A DNA stretch of 10,375 nucleotides from Pseudarthrobacter sp. (GTDB taxonomy: Bacteria > Actinomycetota > Actinomycetes > Actinomycetales > Micrococcaceae): NCBI GenBank assembly GCA_013362385.1, contig JABFWC010000399.1, positions 1 through 10,375 of the forward strand. Direction: 5' to 3'. Shown piece after piece: positions 1-10,153 of this stretch (position 1 is its first letter; each line of letters starts with the position of its first letter). The notes beneath the pieces were generated by a model. The model had not been told where the DNA came from, did no database searches, and saw nothing but the letters and a program-made list of their open reading frames with translations. The position numbers were made by a program, and so were the translations under genes.

Positions 1-418
1 CTGCACCCACAATATGGGGAAGGGGGATGGACAGCGTGCTCATGGCCGCCACGAGCTTCCCGCACCACCTGCCCTGCATAATGATCAGCGCTGCGGTGAA
101 GCCGATCAGGCAGGCCAGGAGCGTGGACGTGACCGCGATCGCCAGGGAGAGCCCCGCTCCAACCAGAAGGTCACCGTGGGCCGTGTAGGCCGCCGTCGAC
201 AATTCCGGGCGGCCAACCAGCGGCATCAGCCCCAGGCTCTGGGCCGCGACCATGGCTGATCCGCCAACCACGACGACGGTGACCAGCACGACAGCGGGGA
301 CCGCCAGTAACACTCCCGGCATACGGGGCTTCAGCGACGGGCCCGCCGCTGTCCGCTGCCCGGACCGGGTTGCCAGGACCTCACTTTCCGGCAAGGATCT
401 GTCTCCGCCAGAGCTCAT
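1..418 (-). CDS. ynjC: ABC transporter permease, YnjC-like (5' part; 3' end beyond window)
   Basis: This is the N-terminal 139 codons of an inner-membrane ABC permease; the rest lies beyond the left edge. A basic, hydrophilic N-terminus is followed by a first membrane segment (VLLAVPAVVLVTVVVV). After an extracytoplasmic loop comes a hydrophobic stretch (LLVGAGLSLAIAVTSTLLAC) typical of the start of a binding-protein-dependent permease domain, and then the segment LSIPLPHIVGA. It directly follows the YnjB-like binding protein, so it should be that protein's permease. E. coli YnjC is a fused two-domain permease; whether this one is fused cannot be seen. The start is uncertain. ATG at 418 overlaps the upstream gene by 38 bp and has no clear ribosome-binding site. 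TTG at 394 has GGAGA 8 nt upstream and overlaps by 14 bp. The ATPase (YnjD type) would be expected further left. Confidence 0.8.
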   Translation of the reverse strand, partial: MSSGGDRSLPESEVLATRSGQRTAAGPSLKPRMPGVLLAVPAVVLVTVVVVGGSAMVAAQSLGLMPLVGRPELSTAAYTAHGDLLVGAGLSLAIAVTSTLLACLIGFTAALIIMQGRWCGKLVAAMSTLSIPLPHIVGA

Positions 419-1622
419 CCAGCGCGGATACCCAGGCCGCGGCAAGCTCATGATTCGCGTTCTTCGACAACACCTCGTAGCCGGGCACCACGGGAGAGGA
501 CGGGAGGCGGCCGAACAGGGCACGCCCTTCAGGGCTGAGCGCACCCGGGTTCAGGACCGGGAATTGTCCCCAGATCCCGGGATCGGCTTTTCGGGCCTGT
601 TGCTCTTCGGACAAGGCCAGGTTGGCCACGACCATCGCGGCGGATCGGTGACCGGATGTTGAGGGTATGCCGAGGAAGCTGGCGTTTCCCACGGTTCCCT
701 CGTCCAGAGTGAGGACTTTGGTCGCGGCGGGGTATGTCCCGTCTGTCACCAGTTTCGTTAGTTCCGCCGGGCCGTAGGTCATGGTGAAATCCACCTGCCC
801 TCCTGCGTAGAGCGCGTTCAGCTCGCTGGAGGATTTCGGGTACGTTGATCCTTCCCGCCACAGTGAGGGCTTCAGGTCCTGAAGTTCGGTCACGAGGGCG
901 GGGGTGAGCCCGTCAAAAGCGCCCAGGTCGCACGCCAGCGGCACTTTCGTGTAGCCGCCGGAGACGCTGTAGAGCACTTCACGGGTAAAGACGGAACCTG
1001 TGAAGTCCGGCGGCGCCGGGTACGTGAATCGTCCCGGGTGTTCTTTGACCCAGTCCAGCAGGCCGGCGAGGGTTTTCGGAGGCTCCGGGACGGCGGCGGA
1101 GTTGTAGGCGATGGTGAACTGCGCTTTGCTCCACGGGGCTTCGCAGCCGTCCACGGGGGTGCCGAAGTCCTCTGAGAGCAGCGGGTCTGACGGGTTGGTG
1201 AGGCCCATGTTAGGCAGCAGGGAAGTCCAGCCGCAGGCCCACGCCCCGGCCGCTTTACCGGTGCCGAAGTTGTCGCCGTTGACCCAGACGAGGTCCACCT
1301 GGCCAGCTGTGGTGCCGGACTGCTTCTCGGTCAGGACCCGGTTGAGCGCGTCTTTGGTGTCGGCCACCGGCACGCGTTTGAGTGTGACGCCCTCCTTGGC
1401 CGCGGCGGGGACGAGATAGTCGTCCACGTAGGCGTTGCCCTGCGTGTCGCCGCCATACATCCACAGTTTGACGGTCTGTCCCCTCGCGTCGGAGCTGATC
1501 TGCTCCCAGCTCCCCGCTGCGGGCTGTGCTGCCGGCGAAGCCGCACAGCTGCTCAGGAACAACACCCCGGTTACAGCTGCCATCAGGAGAGTCCGGCCGC
1601 CGGCGGGCCGCGGTGTTTTCAT
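381..1622 (-). CDS. ynjB: ABC transporter substrate-binding lipoprotein, YnjB family
   Basis: This is the extracytoplasmic solute-binding component of an ABC importer, 413 aa. It has a lipoprotein signal peptide with a hydrophobic core (about residues 11-23) and lipobox L-S-S-C, making Cys26 the lipidated residue. The mature protein carries segments I associate with the YnjB family: LWMYGGDTQGNAYVDDYL near residue 53, DLVWVNGDNF, EAPWSKAQFTIAYNS and GRFTYPAPPDFTGS. The length is close to the family norm. The start codon overlaps the radical SAM stop (ATGA, 1622-1619), with AGGA 7 nt upstream, so translation is probably coupled. The stop overlaps the downstream permease. The ligand of YnjB is not known; loose similarity to thiamine and iron binding proteins does not settle it. 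The family call is strong, the substrate open. Confidence 0.9.
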   Translation of the reverse strand: MKTPRPAGGRTLLMAAVTGVLFLSSCAASPAAQPAAGSWEQISSDARGQTVKLWMYGGDTQGNAYVDDYLVPAAAKEGVTLKRVPVADTKDALNRVLTEKQSGTTAGQVDLVWVNGDNFGTGKAAGAWACGWTSLLPNMGLTNPSDPLLSEDFGTPVDGCEAPWSKAQFTIAYNSAAVPEPPKTLAGLLDWVKEHPGRFTYPAPPDFTGSVFTREVLYSVSGGYTKVPLACDLGAFDGLTPALVTELQDLKPSLWREGSTYPKSSSELNALYAGGQVDFTMTYGPAELTKLVTDGTYPAATKVLTLDEGTVGNASFLGIPSTSGHRSAAMVVANLALSEEQQARKADPGIWGQFPVLNPGALSPEGRALFGRLPSSPVVPGYEVLSKNANHELAAAWVSALDELWRRQILAGK

Positions 1623-3121
1623 TGTTCGGTCCTGACTTTGGGGGTGAGGGGGAGCAGTTTGCGCAGGCCGGCGTTCTCGGCCGGGTCCAGCACCGAATGC
1701 TGGACGCAGGCGGGGACCAGGTGGCCGGTGTCGGGGTGGCTCATGGTGTACATGCAGGCGCCGAGCCGTTCCTGGACCTCCCGGGTTTTCGGGTCCTCAC
1801 CAACCACGCCCTTCTCCATCAGCTCCCAGGCCGGTGCGACGTCGGCCGCATCCATAAAGTTGTGCACCACGAAGGTCCGGAAGGATAGTTTTCCCGCACG
1901 TGCGGCGGCGAAGATGTGGCGCAGCCCACCGGCACGTTTGGCCACACGGAACCCGAAACCAAGAATCACGGGGACATCGCGGGAGTGGGCCAGCAGGGCC
2001 CTGATGACTTTCAGAGCAACGATCCAGCGGGGTGTCCCGCCGAAAAACATTCCGCCGAAGTGGGCGAGCAACCTGTCCCTGGCCGCCACGTCCTTCGGGT
2101 CGGCCGGGTCCAGCAGCGGCGCCATCGTTTCTCCGGTCCGCAGGACCACGGCGCTACGGTTGCAGCGCGGGTCACCGAACTGGGCGCCCTGCCAGGGGAT
2201 GGGCTGGCCCGCGCCGGCCTCGATCCGGTCCCAGACCGCGTCGATGCTCACATCACTGTAGGCCTTCCCCCATCGCCTGGCATCCCCGATGTATGCCGCG
2301 GGCTGGAAGGAGAGCATGTCGAACGGCATATTCAGTACCGCTGCGGTCACCCGGGCCACCTGATCAACGTTCGCGGGGGTGACCGTCATGTTGTGCGCGA
2401 TGTAGGACCTGACGCCGTGGTCCCGTCGAAGGTCCGTGAACATGGCGGCGAACCGTTCACGGAACGGGTTCAGTTCCTCCTCTGTCCGGGGACGGGGCGC
2501 TCCCCTGCGTCCACGCATGAGCGAATCAAAATGCCCGGCGAATGAAACCCGTCCGAACCGGGACTTGCCGGTGTGATCGAGCGCCACGTCGAGAAGATAC
2601 TGGTAATCGAAGTCGCCGTGGGTCATGGACATCGGTTCGCGTCCGGCGGCACGCATGGCCTGCAGCGCGGCCGCGTGGTCCTGCGCGGGCAGCAGACTGA
2701 CTTCCCCGCCGATGAGCTGGGCGTGGGCACGGGGGCCGCGGAGACGGCGGAGGAACGCCAGCTGGTCCTTCACGGCCGTCACGGTGTGGCCGCCGTCGAT
2801 CGGTACCTTGTTAGCGTCCGCCGAGTGGTAGCACGGGGTGCAGGTGAGGTTGCATTTGGGAAAAACCCCGTGGGTTCCTTCGCAACCCACCGCTGCCCTG
2901 CCCAGCAGTTGGGCCGGGGTTTTGACCTGCTCCGGAAGCCCGGACCAGCGCCGGTCCAGGGCCTCCCGGCTCTCGGGATGGATGGGCCTGGTTGCCAGTT
3001 CAAGGCCTCGAAATACCGCGGCGATCTTCCTCGCAGACATTCCTCCCCAGGACACGCTGCCGGTACGGCCGCCCCGCCCTGGAAGGCTCCCACTGTCTGG
3101 GGCACTGGCTCCCGCGTCCAT
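1619..3121 (-). CDS. radical SAM protein of the ynj-type locus, function unknown
   Basis: A 500-aa radical SAM enzyme. The cluster-binding motif is CNLTCTPC, with Cys90, Cys94 and Cys97 (CX3CX2C), and the GGE motif that contacts SAM is at 138-140. Four further cysteines (Cys80, Cys320, Cys456, Cys472) lie outside the motif. Three of them are in the second half; Cys456 and Cys472 sit in a tail with conserved-looking segments (ACMYTMSHPDTG, VPACVQHSVLDP). They could bind an auxiliary Fe-S cluster or the substrate; this is inference. The start at ATG 3121 has AAAGG 5 nt upstream. An internal ATG (residue 28) is less likely because the GGAGGA there abuts it. Its 3' end overlaps ynjB by 4 bp, so it heads an operon with the importer. 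The substrate is unknown. It does not look like the shorter arsenosugar enzyme ArsS. Confidence 0.88.
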   Translation of the reverse strand: MDAGASAPDSGSLPGRGGRTGSVSWGGMSARKIAAVFRGLELATRPIHPESREALDRRWSGLPEQVKTPAQLLGRAAVGCEGTHGVFPKCNLTCTPCYHSADANKVPIDGGHTVTAVKDQLAFLRRLRGPRAHAQLIGGEVSLLPAQDHAAALQAMRAAGREPMSMTHGDFDYQYLLDVALDHTGKSRFGRVSFAGHFDSLMRGRRGAPRPRTEEELNPFRERFAAMFTDLRRDHGVRSYIAHNMTVTPANVDQVARVTAAVLNMPFDMLSFQPAAYIGDARRWGKAYSDVSIDAVWDRIEAGAGQPIPWQGAQFGDPRCNRSAVVLRTGETMAPLLDPADPKDVAARDRLLAHFGGMFFGGTPRWIVALKVIRALLAHSRDVPVILGFGFRVAKRAGGLRHIFAAARAGKLSFRTFVVHNFMDAADVAPAWELMEKGVVGEDPKTREVQERLGACMYTMSHPDTGHLVPACVQHSVLDPAENAGLRKLLPLTPKVRTEQ

Positions 3122-3412
3122 GGCCGCCTTTCATCCTGCGCGAAGATAGTCATTGGTACCGGACCACCCTACGGCCCGAGCGGCCCAGGTTAAGTAACCT
3201 GGGGCACACAGTGGCAGCCTATTTTCGCGGCGCCGCCGGACCGTCGTGAGCGTAAGCAGTGCCGCCGTACCGGCGGGATGCCAGGGAAAGCGCCTCCGCG
3301 CGCCGCCGCAGCCTGGGATGGCGTCCGGAACCGGGCGCAATCCAATCCAATGCGCTGCTGTCTCGGTCGCTTCGGGCCGCGGGCCCGGTGTGGTCATCAG
3401 GGATCCGTTGTT
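3122..3412. other. intergenic/leader region upstream of the radical SAM operon
   Basis: A 291-bp stretch without a supported gene lies between the methyltransferase stop and the radical SAM start. ORFs here on both strands are low-complexity Arg/Pro/Gly-rich shadows. It holds a perfect palindrome (3184-3203) and a 10-bp GC palindrome (3227-3236). I see no clear -35/-10 pair on the minus strand, though AT-rich patches near 3221-3226 could belong to a promoter. I see no terminator after the methyltransferase. Confidence 0.6.
3184..3203. promoter_or_regulatory. perfect 9-2-9 inverted repeat, candidate operator
   Basis: The arms CCCAGGTTA and TAACCTGGG are exact reverse complements separated by AG. 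The nearer edge lies 62 bp upstream of the radical SAM ATG. A 20-bp dyad with a 2-bp centre fits a dimeric repressor site (TetR, MarR, GntR and similar) better than a terminator, because the loop is too short and no T-run follows on either strand. No regulator gene is present in the window, so the protein is unknown. Confidence 0.55.
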
Positions 3413-4096
3413 CTACTTTCCGCTGGCGGCGCGCCCGGCATTCCGGCGGCCGGCCTGCGGCAGTGTGCCCGCGCGGATCTGCAGGTGTCCTGCCCGGGCC
3501 GAGTCCCGGACGATGCTGTTGCATGTTTGCTCCACGGCCTGCCAGGGGTGTGCAGTGATGTCCGCGCCGCCCAGAGAACATGCCGCGCGCGCCAAGGGAG
3601 TGAGGACCCGGGCCCACCCGACTGGGTCCTGCATGTCTACCACGGCGACTCGGGCCTCGTCGCGCAGCAACTCCGTCAGATGGGCCCAGGTTTTCCGCCA
3701 TTCCGGCATCAATGAGAGCGCGTAGGTTGCCAGGGCTGCGTCGGAGAGGCCCTTTCCGCCTTGGCTTTCGATAATGGCAGCAATGGTTGCGGGGTCCGTT
3801 TCCGCGGCATCTGCCTGGATGAGAATCGTGTTGTCCCATCCGGCTTTGGCGGCGCGCCGGCGGGCCAGGTCCAGCATCCGGGCGCTCCGGTCGATTCCTA
3901 CGATGGTCCCCGACGGGCCTGTTCTTTGCTGGAGCAGCGGAAAGTTGAGCCCGGTTCCGCATCCGAGGTCCAGGACCTGCTGCCCCGGCGCGGGCGCCAA
4001 TGCGGTGATGCCGAGCACCCTTCCGGCCCGGTACACGGGATATTCTCCGGAGAGGGCGTCGTAAAACGGCGCGAATGCTGTGTACTTGTCTGGGAT
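3413..4096 (-). CDS. class I SAM-dependent methyltransferase
   Basis: A soluble Rossmann-fold methyltransferase of about 227 aa. The SAM-binding motif I is VLDLGCGTG, with the acidic motif II segment IVGIDRSARMLDLA after it. An N-terminal lid-like segment (YTAFAPFYDALSGEYPVYRAG) is typical of small-molecule or lipid-type methyltransferases. The conserved N-terminus has no ATG, GTG or TTG before it in frame. A strong Shine-Dalgarno AAGGAG (4107-4102) lies 5 nt before ATC at 4096, so an AUC start is proposed. The alternative GTG at 4036 would remove the lid segment. The frame stays open far upstream, but that part is only the mirror of the divergent reductase gene. The substrate is unknown. The neighbours (lipid synthase, reductase, radical SAM) suggest a joint pathway but do not name it. 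Confidence 0.82.
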   Translation of the reverse strand: MPDKYTAFAPFYDALSGEYPVYRAGRVLGITALAPAPGQQVLDLGCGTGLNFPLLQQRTGPSGTIVGIDRSARMLDLARRRAAKAGWDNTILIQADAAETDPATIAAIIESQGGKGLSDAALATYALSLMPEWRKTWAHLTELLRDEARVAVVDMQDPVGWARVLTPLARAACSLGGADITAHPWQAVEQTCNSIVRDSARAGHLQIRAGTLPQAGRRNAGRAASGK

Positions 4097-4101
4097 AACC
4101 G

Positions 4102-4107
4102 CTCCTT
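4102..4107 (-). promoter_or_regulatory. Shine-Dalgarno AAGGAG for the methyltransferase
   Basis: AAGGAG on the minus strand is followed by the spacer CGGTT and then ATC CCA GAC. It is the only good ribosome-binding site near the conserved protein start, and it fixes translation initiation close to 4096 even though no standard start codon is present. Confidence 0.5.
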
Positions 4108-4159
4108 GGCTGAATGAATACGCTGGCAGCAGCCGGCAACGAACGTAAGGATCTTCATC

Positions 4160-5620
4160 ATGGCATCCAGCGAGGCAATGATTGACTTTCTGGTCCTCGG
4201 CGGAGGCACAGCAGGAATTGTCGGTGCCAAGACGGCCGCCGGTTTCGGTGCCCGCACCGTCCTGGTGGAGCAGCAACGCACCGGCGGGGACTGCCTCTGG
4301 ACCGGCTGTGTTCCCTCCAAAACGCTCCTCTCCGCCGCCGCGCAGGCCAAAACGCTGCGGGAGCACACCGGCCGGGAAGCTGACTTCCCGGCTATCCGGG
4401 AACGCATCGCCGCGGCCATTGGCACCATCGAACCCGTAGACACCCCGCGGGCCCTGGAACGGGCAGGTGTCAAAGTCCTCTCCGGCCGGATCACCTTCAC
4501 CGGACCAGGGACCGCCGAACTGGACGGACTCCCCCTCCGGTTCCGGCAGGCGCTGATAGCCACCGGCGGCGAACCCGTCAACCCCGGCGTCCCTGGCCTG
4601 GACCCGGCCCGAACCGTCACCTCCGAAACGATCTGGGACCTGCCCGGGCTGCCGGCCCGGCTCGCCATCGTCGGCGGCGGACCGATTGCCTGCGAACTGG
4701 GACAGGCCTTGGCCCGGCTCGGCTCCGATGTCACCATGATCGTCCGTTCTCGGATCCTTGCAAAGGAAATCCCGGAAGCTGTCGACATTATCCGGGAAAG
4801 CCTCAGAGCCGACGGCGTGAAAATCCTGGAGAACTCCCGCATCACGAGGGCAACGAGCCACCCGGAAGGGGTCCTGCTGGAACTGGGGGACGGGGCAGCT
4901 GTGGACGCTTCCACCGTGCTCCTGGCAACCGGCCGCATTCCACGGACCACGGGCCTCGGGCTCGAACACGTCGGCGTGAACACCGACGGGCGAGGGCATG
5001 TCGTCACTGATTCCCGCATGCGGACTTCCAATCCTCGGATCTGGGCGGCAGGAGACGTCACGGCGTATCCGCAGTTCACTCATCTGGCAGGTGTCCACGC
5101 CAGCGTGGCAGCATCCAACGCGGTCCTCGGTTTCCGGCGCCGGATCAGCACAGCCGTCCCGCGCGTCACCTACACCTCACCGGAAATCGCCGCGGTGACA
5201 AGCACCGACGGCGGTGAGCCAGGGATGTCCAGGACGTCCAGGACAGTGTGGCACTCCCACCTGGACCGGGCCATCACCGAGGACAGGACCGAGGGTTTCA
5301 CACGTCTGCTGGTGGACCGCGGGGGCCGTGTTACCGGGGGCACCATCGTGGGCCCCCGGGCAGGGGAATCCCTTGCCGAGTTGTCCCTGGCCGTGCACAA
5401 GAAGATGCGGACCTCAGACATCGCCGGCGCCACCCACGCATACCCCACGTACTCCGACGGTGTGTGGAACGCCGCCGTCCTGGATGTCCGCGAACGGCTG
5501 GGTTCTCCTGTTACGTCGACGGCCATCAAGGTGTTGGCCAGGATCCGCCGGCTGGCCATGGACATGCGCCGGCTCAGCTCAAAGCCCGGTACCCTGCCAG
5601 GATCCGGTGGGCAGCACTGA
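4160..5620 (+). CDS. FAD-dependent pyridine nucleotide-disulfide oxidoreductase (MerA-like, not a true mercuric reductase)
   Basis: A cytoplasmic flavoprotein, 486 aa. The N-terminal FAD fold has GGGTAG (residues 14-19). The redox disulfide is GGDCLWTGCVPSK with Cys45 and Cys50. The NAD(P)H fold has IVGGGPIACELG (170-181), and the second FAD contact is ATGRIP and IWAAGDV (294-300). The dimerisation domain carries THAYPTYSD (425-433). In lipoamide dehydrogenase the matching position is the catalytic His of HAHP; here it is Tyr428, a replacement I also associate with mercuric reductase. It lacks the N-terminal metal-binding domain and the C-terminal Cys-Cys pair of MerA, so Hg(II) reduction is not supported. 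A basic tail follows from residue 455. TAAGGA lies 8 nt before the ATG. It is divergent from the methyltransferase and its 3' end overlaps the phosphatidyltransferase gene by 47 bp. The substrate is unknown. Confidence 0.92.
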   Translation: MASSEAMIDFLVLGGGTAGIVGAKTAAGFGARTVLVEQQRTGGDCLWTGCVPSKTLLSAAAQAKTLREHTGREADFPAIRERIAAAIGTIEPVDTPRALERAGVKVLSGRITFTGPGTAELDGLPLRFRQALIATGGEPVNPGVPGLDPARTVTSETIWDLPGLPARLAIVGGGPIACELGQALARLGSDVTMIVRSRILAKEIPEAVDIIRESLRADGVKILENSRITRATSHPEGVLLELGDGAAVDASTVLLATGRIPRTTGLGLEHVGVNTDGRGHVVTDSRMRTSNPRIWAAGDVTAYPQFTHLAGVHASVAASNAVLGFRRRISTAVPRVTYTSPEIAAVTSTDGGEPGMSRTSRTVWHSHLDRAITEDRTEGFTRLLVDRGGRVTGGTIVGPRAGESLAELSLAVHKKMRTSDIAGATHAYPTYSDGVWNAAVLDVRERLGSPVTSTAIKVLARIRRLAMDMRRLSSKPGTLPGSGGQH

Positions 5621-6200
5621 CCCCCACGAGAAGGGCCCAGACGGCAGCTATCACCCAGGCGCGGTCCGGGAAGATCAGCCACAGGCTGTGCACGACCACG
5701 GTCTCAGCCCCCTCGGCCAGTCCGCCCAGAAAGGACAGCGACCTTCCGTCGTCGAGCTGGCGGCCGGTTTTCTCGGCGATGGAGGAAAACGCGAGGAGCA
5801 CCGCCCCGTTGATGTAGTAGCTGAACAGGACCAGCAGGAATGGCAGCCAGGGGGCGCCGAAGGCCGCCGTGGCGCCCACTGCCACACCGACGACGGTGGC
5901 GCCGTAGACGACGAAGTCGGCGCTGATGTCCCAGAACCCGCCCCGCCCGGGATCTTCCTGCCCCGACCGGCCGCGCCTGAGGCGGCCAAGCGGGCCGTCC
6001 AGACCGTCAGCGAGCCTGCACAACAGCCATGCAGCCAAGGCCGGAAACCACCACTGGGCTGCGGCGAGGCCTGCGCTGCCCAGGCCCATCACCAGGTTCA
6101 GGCCGGTCAGCCGGTCGGGGGTGACCCATGGCCGGTCCACTGCTGAAGCCATCCGGTCAAGAAGGGGCGAAGTCCGTGGCCGCAGCATGGCATCAAACAT
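5574..6200 (-). CDS. CDP-alcohol phosphatidyltransferase family membrane protein (YnjF-like)
   Basis: An integral membrane enzyme of 208 aa, predicted to transfer a phosphatidyl group from a CDP-alcohol to an alcohol acceptor. The family signature is present in slightly altered form: D65-G-L-D68-G69-P-L-G72-R73, then G87-x3-D91-x3-D95. Gly72 replaces the usual Ala, and the gap between the halves is a few residues longer than usual. All metal-binding aspartates are kept. Several hydrophobic helices surround the motif. The start at ATG 6200 is preferred over an upstream in-frame ATG at 6254 because GGGAAAGA lies just before it and because it overlaps the TVP38 stop by 8 bp. The product (phospholipid or other) is not predictable. 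Its resemblance to YnjF is judged from family and context. Confidence 0.85.
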   Translation of the reverse strand: MFDAMLRPRTSPLLDRMASAVDRPWVTPDRLTGLNLVMGLGSAGLAAAQWWFPALAAWLLCRLADGLDGPLGRLRRGRSGQEDPGRGGFWDISADFVVYGATVVGVAVGATAAFGAPWLPFLLVLFSYYINGAVLLAFSSIAEKTGRQLDDGRSLSFLGGLAEGAETVVVHSLWLIFPDRAWVIAAVWALLVGVSAAHRILAGYRALS

Positions 6201-6861
6201 TCTTTCCCGCCCTTTTCCGCCGCCGCTTACGTACAGCCACCACCAGTCCGGCAATGGTCAGCAGGCCCAGAACGACGGCGGCGGCCTGAACCTGCCATCC
6301 CAGCTTCGCGCCGAAGGCACCCAGGGTCACGTAGCTGAGAGTCCCGGGCAGGATACCCAGCGCCGTGCCCAGAATATAGGGCCACCAGCCAGCAGAGGTC
6401 AGGCCGGCCAGATAATTGATGGCGGTAAACGGAAGGACCGGCACCAGGCGTACCCCGACCACCGCGGCGAAGCCTCTGCGTTGAAGGAGATGATCCAGCT
6501 TCTCCACTCTCGCTCCCGTGAAGGCCTCCACCGCCTCCCGCCCCAACCAGCGGCCCAGCCAAAAAGCCGCCGTAGCTCCCAACAGGGCCGCTGCCACCAC
6601 CACTCCTGTTCCGCCGGCGAAACCAAAAACCACCCCGGCGCCAATGGACAGGACGTTCTTCGGCACCGGGGAAAGAGTCAAGGCAGCATAGCCCAGGACG
6701 AAAACAACCGCGCCCCACGGGGTGCCCGTGAAGTACCGCTGCAGATCATCCACCGTCGGGAGGGGGAACAGAAGCACGGCCACAGCAGCAACAGCAATGA
6801 ATGCCACCAGCAACACCAGACGGATCAAGGCCCGGTGGCGGGCAGGCAATGATCGTGTCAT
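6193..6861 (-). CDS. TVP38/TMEM64 family membrane protein (VTT domain, DedA superfamily)
   Basis: A 222-aa inner-membrane protein with about six hydrophobic segments, ending in a strongly basic cytoplasmic tail (RKRRRKR). The VTT-domain hallmarks are present: a re-entrant-type stretch with SPVPKNVLSIGAGVVFGF (64-81), the helix GATAAFWLGRWLGRE, and the second half RLVPVLPFTAINYLAGLT (138-155) followed by GTALGILPGTLSYVTLG. Related DedA/VTT proteins act in lipid transport or scrambling and membrane homeostasis; TVP38-type members are less understood. AAGG lies 7 nt upstream of the ATG. It is translationally coupled to the downstream phosphatidyltransferase. In E. coli, YdjX and YdjZ of this family sit beside ynjA-F. 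Confidence 0.9.
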   Translation of the reverse strand: MTRSLPARHRALIRLVLLVAFIAVAAVAVLLFPLPTVDDLQRYFTGTPWGAVVFVLGYAALTLSPVPKNVLSIGAGVVFGFAGGTGVVVAAALLGATAAFWLGRWLGREAVEAFTGARVEKLDHLLQRRGFAAVVGVRLVPVLPFTAINYLAGLTSAGWWPYILGTALGILPGTLSYVTLGAFGAKLGWQVQAAAVVLGLLTIAGLVVAVRKRRRKRAGKNV

Positions 6862-6864
6862 CGG

Positions 6865-7124
6865 TTAACCTTGCGAACCGCTGTTGGGCGGCCTTTCAGG
6901 CCCCGGGCTTTTTTCTTCTGCCTTGCTGATCGCCCAGGCAGCGTTGACCAGCCCGATATGGCTGAAGGCCTGCGGGAACCGCTGCCGGGGTCCGCTTCTT
7001 CCGAGAGGAGGCCAAGATCCGTCGCGAAGGCGGCCGCGGATTCAAACACGTCCCGGGCGCGTTCGACGGACCCGGCCAGGGCCAGGGCGTGGGCGAGCCA
7101 GAACGTGCACAGCAGAAAAGTCCC
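6865..7124 (-). pseudogene. C-terminal remnant of a GH15-type glucoamylase/trehalase-like protein, frameshifted
   Basis: The minus strand encodes the end of a glycoside hydrolase family 15 protein in two frames. The first part reads GTFLLCTFWLAHALALAG, then VERARDVFESAAAFATDLG, then LLSEEADPGSG. The frame then shifts near 6978-6986, and the other frame continues FPQAFSHIGLVNAAWAIS to a TAA at 6867-6865. These are the conserved last helices of the (alpha/alpha)6 barrel. Only about 85 of the usual roughly 600 residues remain, and the catalytic glutamates are absent. The unshifted frame runs on to a TGA that overlaps the TVP38 ATG. No function is expected. It could instead reflect a sequencing slip in the frame, but the missing 5' part is real. 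Confidence 0.75.
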
Positions 7125-7159
7125 ATGTCGCTGGGCCGGGATCCCGGTGCCAGCCTCTC

Positions 7160-7216: not shown

Positions 7217-7289
7217 ACTTGCATCACCTCCGTGAACATGCACAGTTCCGTTAGTCACTGCCGGTGTCCCGCAGGAATCCCGGGTCGTG

Positions 7290-7739
7290 TCAATGTGTGC
7301 CGCTCCGGTGCCGGGCTTTGAGTCCGATGGCCAGGGCGCTGACCAATGCGGTTGCCTCGGCTGTGATCGCCACCACGCCAAGGGGTTCCAGCCAGTTGTC
7401 GATGTCGTCGCCGATTTGGGGCAGCCCTACGGTGCGGGAGATGACGTAGGCGAGGAGGGCCAGCCCCATCACTGCTGCGGTACTGAGGTAGGCCGCTGCG
7501 ACGTCGCCGAGGGCGAGCACGGCAGCCAAGGCGAAGCTGGCAACGGTGAGGACGATGAAGAGGACCCCGATGTAGGGGGCTTCGCGGAGATGGGCCGGAA
7601 TCACGGGTATATGGGCTGCACCGGCCACCACCAATGCGAGCACGGGAAGTGCCCGCAGCGGGTGTTTGATGGGAGGACCGAGCAGCGCGCCATGCCTCAC
7701 GTGTGAGCGATGGCGCGTCGTTTTTATTTCCGTTGCCAT
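7290..7739 (-). CDS. four-helix integral membrane protein, unknown function
   Basis: A 149-aa protein with a hydrophilic, His/Arg-rich N-terminus and four predicted membrane helices (about residues 30-46, 56-78, 81-103 and 120-142). Features that look conserved are AAHIPVIPAHLREAPYIGVLFI at the end of helix 1 and into helix 2, and SRTVGLPQIGDDIDNWLEPLG between helices 3 and 4. The second helix 1-type His and the P..G...W.EP loop recur in the four-helix protein at 8886-8389, so the two appear to be distant paralogues. No catalytic motif is recognised. The start at 7739 has only a weak ribosome-binding site and overlaps a doubtful small ORF by 16 bp, which would suggest coupling if that ORF is real. 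Confidence 0.75.
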   Translation of the reverse strand: MATEIKTTRHRSHVRHGALLGPPIKHPLRALPVLALVVAGAAHIPVIPAHLREAPYIGVLFIVLTVASFALAAVLALGDVAAAYLSTAAVMGLALLAYVISRTVGLPQIGDDIDNWLEPLGVVAITAEATALVSALAIGLKARHRSGTH

Positions 7740-7957
7740 GGATCTTGGCCAATCGTGTCACGGCGCCCCGAGGATGGTCCGCCTGGAGAAATGCTGCCCG
7801 CCGACTCGTTTCGGGAACATAAGCAATTCGTTGCCCGGAGCGCTTCGGCTGGGTCCGGAAGCGGTTCAGTATCGATAAGTGTCCCGCTCTGGGCATCCTT
7901 GGCCAATTCGTCGAAGGACAGGGATTCTCTCCTCTTACGGCGTCCCGTGATATTCAT
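7724..7957 (-). CDS. hypothetical small protein (doubtful)
   Basis: A 77-aa ORF with a basic start (MNITGRRKRRES) and a plausible hydrophilic first half (SFDELAKDAQSGTLIDTEPL). The second half is low-complexity and unlike a folded protein (SAGSISPGGPSSGRR). There is no clear ribosome-binding site. The stop overlaps the start of the membrane protein at 7739. It may be a real gene with a frameshift near 7830, a remnant, or chance. No family is recognised. Confidence 0.3.
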   Translation of the reverse strand: MNITGRRKRRESLSFDELAKDAQSGTLIDTEPLPDPAEALRATNCLCSRNESAGSISPGGPSSGRRDTIGQDPWQRK

Positions 7958-8388
7958 TCGCTAACCGGGACGTTCCAAAGTGGCCGACCTGGCGAGGGGA
8001 ACCATCCCTCCCAGCCTGGTGAGGATGAGGGAGGCGGTCCGGATGGCCGTGGGTATTGCCAAGGTCAGCGGCTGGGTGGAATCTGCATCGATCTCTCCGG
8101 AGCCTCCCCGTTCAAGCGCGGTCTCCGACAGTTGTTCATTGGCTTCGGTCCAGCCACCATTACATACCGGCTCGCGCTTCTGTTCAGCGCCGGAACCGCC
8201 CAGACCGTAACAAAAGGCTCCTTCCGCTCCGACTTAGCCCTTTGCGTAGGACAACGACCCCGATCCATAGCGCCAGCTTGGCCGTTTCGTGAACGGGCGT
8301 TTGAGGTAATTCCGGGAGAGGTTCAGCTGGGTATTCCGGCCTAACCGTTGCATGGGCCGGCACAGGTGCCTGATCCCGGGCGGAGCGG
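7958..8388. other. stretch of about 430 bp with no convincing gene
   Basis: Short frames on both strands here have poor start sites and mixed codon use. The best is a minus-strand frame open from 8233 to the TAG at 7961, with a plausible composition (GGWTEANEQLSETALERGG, later IPTAIRTASLILTRLGGMVP). It has no start codon before its last third, despite AAGGAG near its 5' end. It may be a decayed gene. A nested inverted repeat lies at 8341-8392. No RNA gene is seen. Confidence 0.5.
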
Positions 8389-8392
8389 TTAG
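8341..8392 (-). terminator. nested inverted repeat after the four-helix membrane protein; weak terminator candidate
   Basis: An outer pair CTAACCG (8341-8347) and CGGTTAG (8386-8392) encloses an inner pair GGCAC (8359-8363) and GTGCC (8366-8370). The outer arm includes the TAA stop of the membrane protein gene. No T-run follows on the minus strand and the outer loop is long, so Rho-independent termination is not well supported. The inner 2-nt loop is also poor. Confidence 0.25.
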
Positions 8393-8886
8393 AGGTCGCA
8401 TCTGGTCTGGTCGGGGCGGGTGTTCTGGTGGAGTACCAGCGCGATGTTTGCGAGGAGGGTCGCGAGGCCCTGGGCGAGGGCGGTGAGGGTTTTGTCGAAG
8501 AACCAGACCGGTTCATACATGGCCGGGAAGGGCCCGAACGCGGGGATGTCGATGTAGCGGTAGAGGACCAGGACGGCGAGTCCGCCGCCGGCGGTGAGCA
8601 GGGCAAGGATCCAGGCTGGCCTGCTTCCGCGGATCAGGACGTAGAGCCCGGCCATCGCAGCGGCCGCAGCTTCGGCGAGGAAGAGATTGCCCTCGCCGAA
8701 CCCTTCGGGTGCGGCGGCCTGGTACCCGGGGGCAAGGCGGAAGTGTACGCCGGCGTCCACGGCCAGGGCGGCCGCGGCCAGGACCCGCAGGACCAGGCGC
8801 GTGGCCCTGCTCCGGAGGGCGCGGTTCAAAGGTTTTGTGTTCCCTGTGTCACCGGTGGCGCGGCCGGGGCCCTGGTCGGGAATCAT
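8389..8886 (-). CDS. four-helix integral membrane protein coupled to the cupredoxin gene
   Basis: A 165-aa protein with a hydrophilic basic N-terminus and four predicted helices: about residues 31-47 (LVLRVLAAAALAVDAGVHF), 68-84, 90-110 and 131-153. A His closes helix 1, and the loop YIDIPAFGPFPAMYEPVW resembles the matching loop of the protein at 7739-7290. Its ATG overlaps the cupredoxin TGA (ATGA, 8886-8883), so it should be made together with the copper protein. A role in copper handling or electron transfer at the membrane is inference from this context; no metal-binding motif is evident beyond scattered His and Met. Confidence 0.8.
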   Translation of the reverse strand: MIPDQGPGRATGDTGNTKPLNRALRSRATRLVLRVLAAAALAVDAGVHFRLAPGYQAAAPEGFGEGNLFLAEAAAAAMAGLYVLIRGSRPAWILALLTAGGGLAVLVLYRYIDIPAFGPFPAMYEPVWFFDKTLTALAQGLATLLANIALVLHQNTRPDQTRCDL

Positions 8887-9371
8887 TTGACGGTCAGCGT
8901 TCCATGCATGTTGGAGTGGTAGGTGCAGTGGTAGGTGTAGGTACCGGGCTTGGCGGGTGCGGTGAAGGTGACACTGGTGCCGGCCTTGACCACCGCGTCG
9001 AAGGATCCGTCGTCAGCGGTGACCGTATGGGCGACATTGTCCATGTTCATCACCGTCACCGTTGACCCGGCCCGGACGCTCTCGGCGCCGGTGTAGGCGA
9101 AGGATTTGATGTGGAGCGTCGCTTCGGCCGCCATCCCGGTGGACCCAGTTGTGGTACCGGTCGTTGCTGCCATCGATGGCGGCATTGAGGAGGGCATCGG
9201 AGAACCGCTCATGCTCATGCCCGGATCCATGGACGCCGTTGACGCGGCCGTCGTGGACGGCGCGGTTGATGAGCCTGTCCCGGTCCCGGCGGTGCCGCAG
9301 GCGCTGGCCCCAATGATGGTCGCAGCCCCTATCAGGGTCAGGGTGAGGCGCTGGCGGGTCGTGGTCTTCAT
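8883..9371 (-). CDS. cupredoxin-domain lipoprotein (type 1 copper, amicyanin/plastocyanin-like)
   Basis: A 162-aa exported blue-copper protein. The signal peptide (1-24) ends in a lipobox-like A-S-A-C with Cys25 as lipid anchor. A long Ser/Thr/Pro/Met-rich linker follows (about 30-80), with Met at 48, 52, 54, 59, 63 and 67. The cupredoxin domain (about 83-162) shows all four type 1 copper ligands: His115 (NVAHTVT), then Cys149, His152 and Met155 in HCTYHSNMHG. The C-x2-H-x2-M spacing is that of amicyanin. It acts outside the membrane in electron transfer or copper binding. AAGGGG lies 8 nt before the ATG. The stop overlaps the start of the downstream membrane protein, and a sortase gene lies upstream. 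Confidence 0.92.
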   Translation of the reverse strand: MKTTTRQRLTLTLIGAATIIGASACGTAGTGTGSSTAPSTTAASTASMDPGMSMSGSPMPSSMPPSMAATTGTTTGSTGMAAEATLHIKSFAYTGAESVRAGSTVTVMNMDNVAHTVTADDGSFDAVVKAGTSVTFTAPAKPGTYTYHCTYHSNMHGTLTVK

Positions 9372-9442: not shown

Positions 9443-10153
9443 TCAGGAAGCGGGGTGGCTGGAGGTCAGGTGGGCGTAGACGACGGTGTTGTCCAGGTAC
9501 TCCCGGGTGGCCCGGTCATAGCCGCCGCAGGTGATGAGGCGGACCTCGGGGCGGTCCGCGTTCCGGTAGACCTCGATCGTGGGGAAGGTGGCTTTGTGGT
9601 AGACATCGACTTTGTCCACGGTGAACACGGCAGCGGTGTGGTCGGCGCGGGTGACAGTGATGGTCTGGCCCGGGGTGAGTTCGTGGAGCCGGTAGAACAG
9701 CCCGATGTCACTGTTGGTGGCGTTCACGTGGCCGAGGATGACCGCGGACCCCGTCTGGCCTGGGGTGGGCGAGTCCTGGTACCAGCCCGCGGGTGAACCG
9801 GGTTCACCGGAAGGGGTTTGGACTTCCCCGTTGGCTTGTTTGCCCAGCGGGGTCAGGGCCGCGTCCACGCCAATGGTGGGGACCTCGATCCGGACCGGCA
9901 TGGACGCCGGCAACGCCGCGTCTGGCACGGAAGGAACTGGCGCAGCCGGTGTGGAACCGGTCGCTGCCGGACCCGCGGCTGTCTCGGGGGATGGTGCCGG
10001 GACCGGTGCCGCAGACACGCTGCTGGTTGGGCCTGGTGTGGGTGGTTCGGCGTGCAGGCCCAGGCCGATGGTGGTGACGCCGCCGGCCAGGAGCAGCGCG
10101 GCCGCCGCGGAGGCGATAACGCGTCCGCGGCGGCTGCTGTTCTCAGTTCCCAT
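9443..10153 (-). CDS. class F-like sortase
   Basis: A 236-aa membrane-anchored cysteine transpeptidase. A basic N-terminus and one membrane segment (about 13-33) are followed by a Pro/Ala/Ser-rich linker (36-85) and the sortase barrel (about 86-230). The catalytic residues are His142 (VILGHVN), Cys209 (LITCGGYD) and most likely Arg217, in TREYLDNTVVYAHL. The compact domain and the TCGGYD...YLDN end match class F (also called class E/F) sortases of actinobacteria. AGGA lies about 6 nt before the ATG. The gene just upstream ends in a membrane anchor and basic tail, making it a candidate substrate. The next gene downstream, 71 bp on, encodes the cupredoxin. Confidence 0.92.
   Translation of the reverse strand: MGTENSSRRGRVIASAAAALLLAGGVTTIGLGLHAEPPTPGPTSSVSAAPVPAPSPETAAGPAATGSTPAAPVPSVPDAALPASMPVRIEVPTIGVDAALTPLGKQANGEVQTPSGEPGSPAGWYQDSPTPGQTGSAVILGHVNATNSDIGLFYRLHELTPGQTITVTRADHTAAVFTVDKVDVYHKATFPTIEVYRNADRPEVRLITCGGYDRATREYLDNTVVYAHLTSSHPAS

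Follow-up and report, generated by a model that had tools for sequence, protein, structure and literature searches.

A phylum-crossing YnjB locus in Pseudarthrobacter and its possible role in membrane-lipid tailoring

Gene content and the E. coli counterpart

The window considered here, a 10,375-nucleotide contig (C288) of a draft Pseudarthrobacter sp. genome (2.46 Mb, 494 contigs, 64% complete) whose protein matches agree with the Arthrobacter/Pseudarthrobacter group, carries a row of genes that includes ynjB, encoding an ATP-binding cassette (ABC) substrate-binding protein. Read on the minus strand from position 6861 downwards, genes for TVP38, a YnjF-type cytidine diphosphate (CDP)-alcohol phosphatidyltransferase, a methyltransferase, a radical S-adenosylmethionine (SAM) enzyme, YnjB and the start of YnjC follow one another, and the phosphatidyltransferase and methyltransferase genes have between them one for a MerA-like flavoprotein, encoded on the plus strand:

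2..394 (-), ynjC-type ABC permease, 5' part; 73% and 93% identical to homologues in the related loci L023 and L031
381..1622 (-), ynjB, ABC substrate-binding protein; NF008633 428 bits, 38% identical to E. coli YnjB
1619..3040 (-), radical SAM enzyme of a Tes/TrsS-like family; assigned by homologues, fold and cysteine pattern
3413..4114 (-), SAM-dependent class I methyltransferase; Pfam Methyltransf_31 and others over cut-off
4160..5620 (+), MerA-like FAD/NAD(P)H oxidoreductase; Pfam Pyr_redox_2 199.7 bits, C45-x4-C50 redox pair
5574..6200 (-), CDP-alcohol phosphatidyltransferase, YnjF relative; 35% identical to YnjF, motif intact, overlapping the convergent flavoprotein gene
6193..6861 (-), TVP38/TMEM64 membrane protein of the YdjX/YdjZ kind; Pfam VTT 93.8 bits, 33% and 30% identical to YdjX and YdjZ

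The ynjC-type frame is open from 2 to 544 and cut by the contig end, with possible starts at a TTG (394) or an ATG (418). The radical SAM frame is open to 3121, with homologue starts falling near the ATG at 3040, and the methyltransferase frame has no in-frame ATG, GTG or TTG between 4060 and 4180.

An initial annotation had described this row as an actinobacterial counterpart of the Escherichia coli ydjXYZ-ynjABCDEF locus, recalling correctly a gene order that in strain K-12 runs ydjX, ydjY, ydjZ, ynjA, ynjB, ynjC, ynjD, ynjE, then ynjF on the other strand. The relationship is borne out by the gene families and by their recurrent co-location, and comparison with E. coli by BLASTP, with the NF008633 and Pfam VTT models, finds the TVP38, CDP-alcohol phosphatidyltransferase and YnjB families where that annotation had put them. 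YnjB is 37.9% identical to E. coli K-12 YnjB over 375 residues (E 4e-74, BLASTP) and well over the cut-off of the curated NCBIfam YnjB model NF008633 (428 against 203 bits), the nearest sequence from a named genome being that of Pseudarthrobacter sp. Fe7 (96%); a narrow-profile sequence search of the PDB with YnjB returned nothing (E 0.01). TVP38 is likewise over its Pfam VTT cut-off (93.8 against 33.9 bits) and resembles both E. coli K-12 YdjX (32.9%, E 4e-23) and YdjZ (29.9%, E 6e-18) by BLASTP. The phosphatidyltransferase, 35.2% identical to E. coli YnjF over 216 residues (E 7e-26, BLASTP), scores 21.4 bits against the Pfam family model, just under the cut-off of 22. The active-site motif of CDP-alcohol phosphatidyltransferases is D-x2-D-G ... 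G-x3-D-x3-D; its residues here, D83, D86, G87, G105, D109 and D113 (numbered in the 226-residue frame from 6254), are kept in 103 of 103 homologues, rows more than 97% identical being omitted from this count and from that of the methyltransferase cysteines below.

The YnjC assignment of the initial annotation survives in part. Only the 5' part of the gene is present, and neither BLASTP (best E 1.4) nor tblastn (0.39) matches it significantly to E. coli YnjC; gene place and longer homologues in L023 (73%) and L031 (93%) identify it. In 55 actinobacterial loci a gene between ynjC and ynjD gives a weak match (best E 9e-9) to E. coli YnjC, in its C-terminal half, so that the permease of the window's relatives is apparently split into two genes, where E. 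coli has a single fused one. YnjD lies off the window contig, and a tblastn search of the window for YdjY, YnjA, YnjD and YnjE gave nothing below E 0.1; AhpD-like genes, the class to which YnjA belongs, occur in 19 related actinobacterial loci. Common to the window and the E. coli row are YnjB, a YnjC/D-type ABC importer (YnjD being known from relatives), YnjF and TVP38 (as YdjX/YdjZ), whereas the E. coli row has no MerA-like flavoprotein, radical SAM or methyltransferase genes. Among the titles and opening abstracts found for ydjXYZ-ynjABCDEF none concerned the function of the locus, which figures in regulon tables and operon lists in the passages available; there the operon is listed as directly FNR-activated (PMC3688515), and some papers treat YnjE as a sulfurtransferase.

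Co-location within and beyond the Actinobacteria

The neighbourhood was surveyed in 80 named loci, the 80 best of 260 hits that the YnjB of the window gave among named genomes (one query, one scan), a set that leans to close kin for that reason; neighbours were assigned to families by thresholds on the BLASTP bit score, with one or a few references each. YnjC was found in 78 and YnjD in 77 of the 80. Where at least 7 kb was available on both sides (64 loci), permease and ATPase genes were present in all 64, YnjF in 63, the flavoprotein in 61, TVP38 in 59, the methyltransferase in 46 and the radical SAM enzyme in 35. The MerA-like gene is opposite in strand to the phosphatidyltransferase gene in 68 of the 71 named loci holding both. 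By comparison, 40 spaced 20-kb control stretches from eight genomes, four of them without a YnjB of this family, contained zero YnjF, TVP38, methyltransferase or radical SAM genes, with an ATPase match in eight and a flavoprotein-type match in two; the flavoprotein threshold admits paralogues, as in these two controls and, in the flavoprotein tree, in L157, L019, L066 and others. Survey and controls together constituted the refutation test that the initial annotation had itself named: the families are not independently scattered, a candidate explanation that the controls reject, and the co-location is not unique to this strain. The partners it had listed fared differently, since TVP38, YnjF and the flavoprotein do accompany YnjB, while the radical SAM and methyltransferase genes (43 and 50 of all 80) depend on lineage.

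That dependence is seen in an even sample of the phylum (E 1e-40), in which YnjB occurs in 36 and the radical SAM enzyme in 10 of 396 genomes, the window genome included. From 28 of the 35 other YnjB-positive genomes (G166, G209, G220, G306, G354, G407 and G423 being left out) and three relatives, 31 further loci were taken, of which 15 have less than 7 kb on one side. The flavoprotein lies nearby in 15 of them, TVP38 in 14 and YnjF in 12; radical SAM and methyltransferase genes, common additions in closer Actinobacteria, are rare here (4 and 1 of 31, respectively). Five of the nine other radical SAM genomes have YnjB (G050, G176, G272, G325, G406) and four do not. In these four the radical SAM gene stands beside YnjF and the flavoprotein (G320), beside TVP38 and the flavoprotein (G417), 7 kb from a flavoprotein gene (G136), or with none of YnjF, TVP38 and flavoprotein scored (G179). 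By these counts, YnjBCD, YnjF, TVP38 and the flavoprotein make up the core of the lipid-type locus. Crp/Fnr-type and extracytoplasmic function (ECF) sigma factor genes recur near the loci (24 and 21, respectively).

This core crosses phyla. From 75 plasmid records with YnjB, 18 loci were selected by hand so as to be varied, with hosts including Klebsiella, Metabacillus, Pseudoalteromonas, Falsirhodobacter, Paracoccus, Catenovulum and Pseudooceanicola; YnjF is present in 14, TVP38 in 12 and a flavoprotein match in 11, and in several of them TVP38 and the flavoprotein are fused as one protein. Three loci have YnjBCD alone (L012, L015, L018), and none of the 18 has a radical SAM or methyltransferase gene. 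A tblastn search of plasmids with the window's YnjF at 1e-8 gave no match although YnjF-type genes adjoin YnjB there, and was therefore too strict. Outside E. coli K-12 a YdjY-like gene was found near YnjB in L020 and L163 only. Neither has the flavoprotein, and on these few cases it may be that one of the two proteins substitutes for the other. Fusion of a TVP38-class protein with a pyridine-nucleotide-disulfide reductase was already noted by Todor et al. 2023 (PMC10127716), the passages covered making no mention of YnjB or YnjF. As a separate observation, the Klebsiella YnjB locus L013 and an Acinetobacter locus of the ArsS type (L197) have common flanks, namely genes for a carboxymuconolactone decarboxylase, a type II haloacid dehalogenase and a sigma-70 factor.

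The radical SAM enzyme, flavoprotein and methyltransferase

The radical SAM enzyme carries the motif C90-x3-C94-x2-C97, and C80, C320, C456 and C472 are invariant in 93 sequences. By structure modelling its closest fold, by a wide margin, is that of tetraether lipid synthase (Tes/GDGT-MAS; 7tol, 7tom), with which it has in common the CX3CX2C motif. In a C-terminal segment that aligns weakly, an Arg-x3-Cys ... Pro-x-Cys pattern sets C456 and C472 against the auxiliary-cluster cysteines of Tes (iron–sulfur (Fe-S) ligands from PMC9433317). The nearest solved relative has a known lipid substrate, so that this partner points to a lipid. There are differences: identity to Tes is 14%, the host is bacterial, and the window enzyme has neither the rubredoxin domain nor the N-terminal Fe-S cluster, one cysteine alone (C80) preceding the CX3CX2C motif. 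The window protein does not reach E 0.001 against the Tes model NF045702 (cut-off 450 bits), where relatives, if they reach it, score 27–90 bits. TrsS (NF045646) is the only NCBIfam family that it does reach at that level, with 18.2 bits, far below the cut-off of 490, compared to 107 and 100 bits for relatives in Cupriavidus and Roseomonas. A narrow-profile sequence search of the PDB with the family returned nothing (E 1), and an early structure model from 19 close sequences was poor (predicted local distance difference test, pLDDT, 59) and was not used. In locus L148 the radical SAM gene is adjoined by a second one, fused to a calcineurin-type phosphoesterase (7262-8959 (+)), and Roseomonas L195 has a second radical SAM gene and a separate calcineurin-type phosphoesterase gene in one gene row (10242-11189 and 13435-14268 (+)); the second radical SAM protein is a possible partner enzyme.

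The flavoprotein, called a MerA-like reductase in the initial annotation, is indeed MerA-like in that mercuric reductases come closest to it among solved sequences (1zk7, E 6e-59). It is not a mercuric reductase, however: it scores 319 bits against the MerA model TIGR02053, below the cut-off of 454, and of its 486 residues only 45, 50 and 178 are cysteines, so that the C-terminal cysteine pair carried by mercuric reductase is missing. In Pseudarthrobacter sp. Fe7 the flavoprotein gene (L031, 6310-7853 (-)) reads as two frames, and is perhaps broken or affected by a sequencing error.

Against the NCBIfam models shown, the methyltransferase is under every cut-off, including that of ArsM (45 against 263 bits). 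One of its three cysteines lies in the general SAM motif, and the other two are 88% and 35% conserved. It gave the one PADLOC match, to a Mads-type model (54 bits).

Proposed membrane-lipid tailoring and competing explanations

That these genes form a functional unit is virtually certain. Their product or substrate is probably a membrane lipid, and a membrane-lipid tailoring locus is tentatively favoured as the best explanation of the whole, a guess resting mainly on YnjF, TVP38 and the Tes-like radical SAM enzyme. Directly established are the gene families, the fact that they recur together across phyla, the intactness of the phosphatidyltransferase motif, and a radical SAM enzyme with a Tes-like fold and cysteine pattern; a pathway may be sketched upon them. 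YnjBCD would import a small alcohol-bearing compound. CDP-alcohol phosphatidyltransferase chemistry is established in general, and the YnjF-type enzyme could couple the imported alcohol to CDP-diacylglycerol, giving an unusual phospholipid. The Tes-like enzyme might then activate a lipid carbon, in the tail or the head group, next to a putative C-terminal Fe-S cluster, and the methyltransferase would methylate the product. The MerA-like flavoprotein, often fused to TVP38, may give reducing equivalents or hold an intermediate in its reduced state; the E. coli locus lacks such a protein, and YdjY may take its place there. Finally, TVP38 may move the lipid between leaflets. All six steps taken together are a somewhat doubtful proposition, and if true would mean a further phospholipid in bacteria as well as a bacterial enzyme related to tetraether synthase. 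It is rather unlikely that the scheme extends to its most specific form, in which Actinobacteria make an undescribed phospholipid by placing the imported alcohol on diacylglycerol phosphate through the YnjF-type enzyme, whereupon the Tes-like radical SAM enzyme forms a C–C or C–heteroatom bond on it, the E. coli locus making the unadorned form and arsenosugar lipids being a third variant upon the same TVP38/flavoprotein unit. The initial annotation had suggested a single pathway of uptake, reduction, modification and attachment to, or movement with, a lipid head group. Its lipid part has gained from the Tes fold and the weakly aligned C-terminal cysteine pair of the radical SAM enzyme, but that one compound is imported, reduced, methylated and put on a lipid is conjecture: the added genes depend on lineage, and radical SAM genes occur in genomes without YnjB (four of the nine sampled). 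Literature searches found no paper combining TVP38, mercuric reductase and radical SAM, none combining TVP38 and CDP-alcohol phosphatidyltransferase and, as far as the listings and passages available go, no explanation of the co-location.

Two kinds of locus offer natural contrasts that make the function testable, and each suggests an explanation of its own. In a second type of YnjBCD locus there are an APH/choline-kinase-like gene (10 of 31 loci in the sample) and a nucleoside hydrolase gene (9 of 31, and also Peptoclostridium L015). This would suit nutrient salvage: a nucleoside-, thiamine- or choline-like compound would enter through YnjBCD, and the adjoining lipid genes would be a separate unit. 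YnjF or a flavoprotein match is found in 0 of 10 kinase-type loci compared to 15 of 21 others (Fisher p 2.5e-4, kinship ignored; L157 is counted among the 15 through a flavoprotein that the tree shows to be a paralogue), YnjF itself being present in 12 of those 21, while one kinase-type locus (L163) has TVP38 and YdjY. Genes for thiamine salvage lie some 2.4 kb off in Falsirhodobacter L017, and the window genome holds a second TVP38-YnjF-flavoprotein-methyltransferase-radical SAM block without ynjB. This block, 75–82% identical, is spread over two contigs (L145 on contig C67 of the window genome, G000, and L146 on contig C208) which, judging by contig ends and identities, probably hold one radical SAM gene; after it come a protein without a family match, a Crp/Fnr regulator, an AhpD-like gene and the start of an OpuAC-type binding protein gene. 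Salvage is nevertheless fairly unlikely, as it does not account for an association of YnjF and TVP38 with YnjBCD that persists across Actinomycetota, Bacillota and Proteobacteria; in one reading both locus types import a single alcohol, which the kinase type phosphorylates or cleaves and the lipid type attaches to a lipid. Detoxification of metals or oxidants, with the flavoprotein as a metal or disulfide reductase and the other genes as accessory membrane genes, draws on the kinship with mercuric reductases and on the recurrent Crp/Fnr-type and ECF sigma genes, but is very improbable given the sub-threshold MerA score, the missing C-terminal cysteine pair and a substrate-binding protein that implies import. 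Chance clustering within a lineage, with no functional link, could appeal to the 31 sampled loci, many of which lie on short contigs, since no more than 11 of them have YnjF, TVP38 and flavoprotein together; control-stretch counts and recurrence in distant phyla reduce its likelihood to almost nothing.

The other contrast is provided by arsenosugar loci (ArsM-ArsS-TVP38-MerA-like-DUF547), from which it might be argued that the present locus is their cousin, a metalloid compound being methylated, adenosylated by radical SAM chemistry and put on a phospholipid by the YnjF-type enzyme to give an organoarsenic lipid or one with a similar metalloid. In the plasmid collection 47 records, 45 of them Burkholderia, contain distant relatives of the radical SAM enzyme, and the three such loci read adjoin arsenosugar genes. 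Cupriavidus L021 has an ArsM-like piece at its edge, an AhpD-like gene, ArsS over cut-off, MerA-like and TVP38 genes, two arsenosugar glycosyltransferases over cut-off, an MTAP-like phosphorylase, the radical SAM gene, DUF547 and, further on, an arsC-like gene below cut-off; in B. glumae L022 the relative lies near ArsS and adjoins DUF547; and in Roseomonas L195, with no ArsS over cut-off, it stands beside DUF547 and one arsenosugar glycosyltransferase, with a phosphonate-type ABC importer as well as TVP38 and the flavoprotein nearby. TVP38 and the flavoprotein are also included in the ArsS loci of Acinetobacter and Pseudanabaena. In a quick flavoprotein tree (SH-like approximate likelihood ratio test, SH-aLRT, only; some long branches) the enzymes from the ArsS loci of Cupriavidus and Acinetobacter branch within those of YnjB loci (SH-aLRT 93–98), that of Pseudanabaena falling just outside the mixed group; the TVP38/flavoprotein unit is thus common to both locus types, and of the same subfamily in two cases. 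Against this, none of 22 actinobacterial genomes that carry YnjB or the radical SAM enzyme, the window genome (64% complete) among them, has an ArsS (TIGR04167) score over cut-off; weak matches in all 22 reach at most 56 bits (cut-off 300). Nor did the scoring of the 80 named loci yield an ArsS-like gene, unlike in arsenosugar loci. The methyltransferase is not ArsM by its model score, and its cysteines are as described above. The Thiodictyon ArsS locus has neither TVP38 nor the flavoprotein within 9 kb, and arsenolipids are not known from E. coli, which does have the core locus. An organoarsenic lipid is thus quite improbable, and arsenosugar biosynthesis proper is rejected by the ArsS count; TIGR04282, over cut-off in 10 of the 22 genomes, is alone too unspecific to count. 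No paper with two of slr0303, slr0304 and slr0305 together with arsenosugar was found in a literature search.

The remainder of the window lies upstream of TVP38. At 6868-7145 (-) a gene remnant in two pieces, with a break near 6978, corresponds to about the last 97 of 636 residues of a frame upstream of TVP38 in L023, which recurs in eight related loci and whose protein looks, by eye, like a GH15-type glycoside hydrolase. Two proteins that look membrane-like by eye follow at 7290-7739 (-) and 8389-8886 (-), with no Pfam or NCBIfam match at E 0.001. A cupredoxin-like gene (8883-9371 (-), Pfam 46.1 bits) and a class F sortase gene (9443-10153 (-), NF033748 183.5 bits, cut-off 166) appear unrelated to the cluster.

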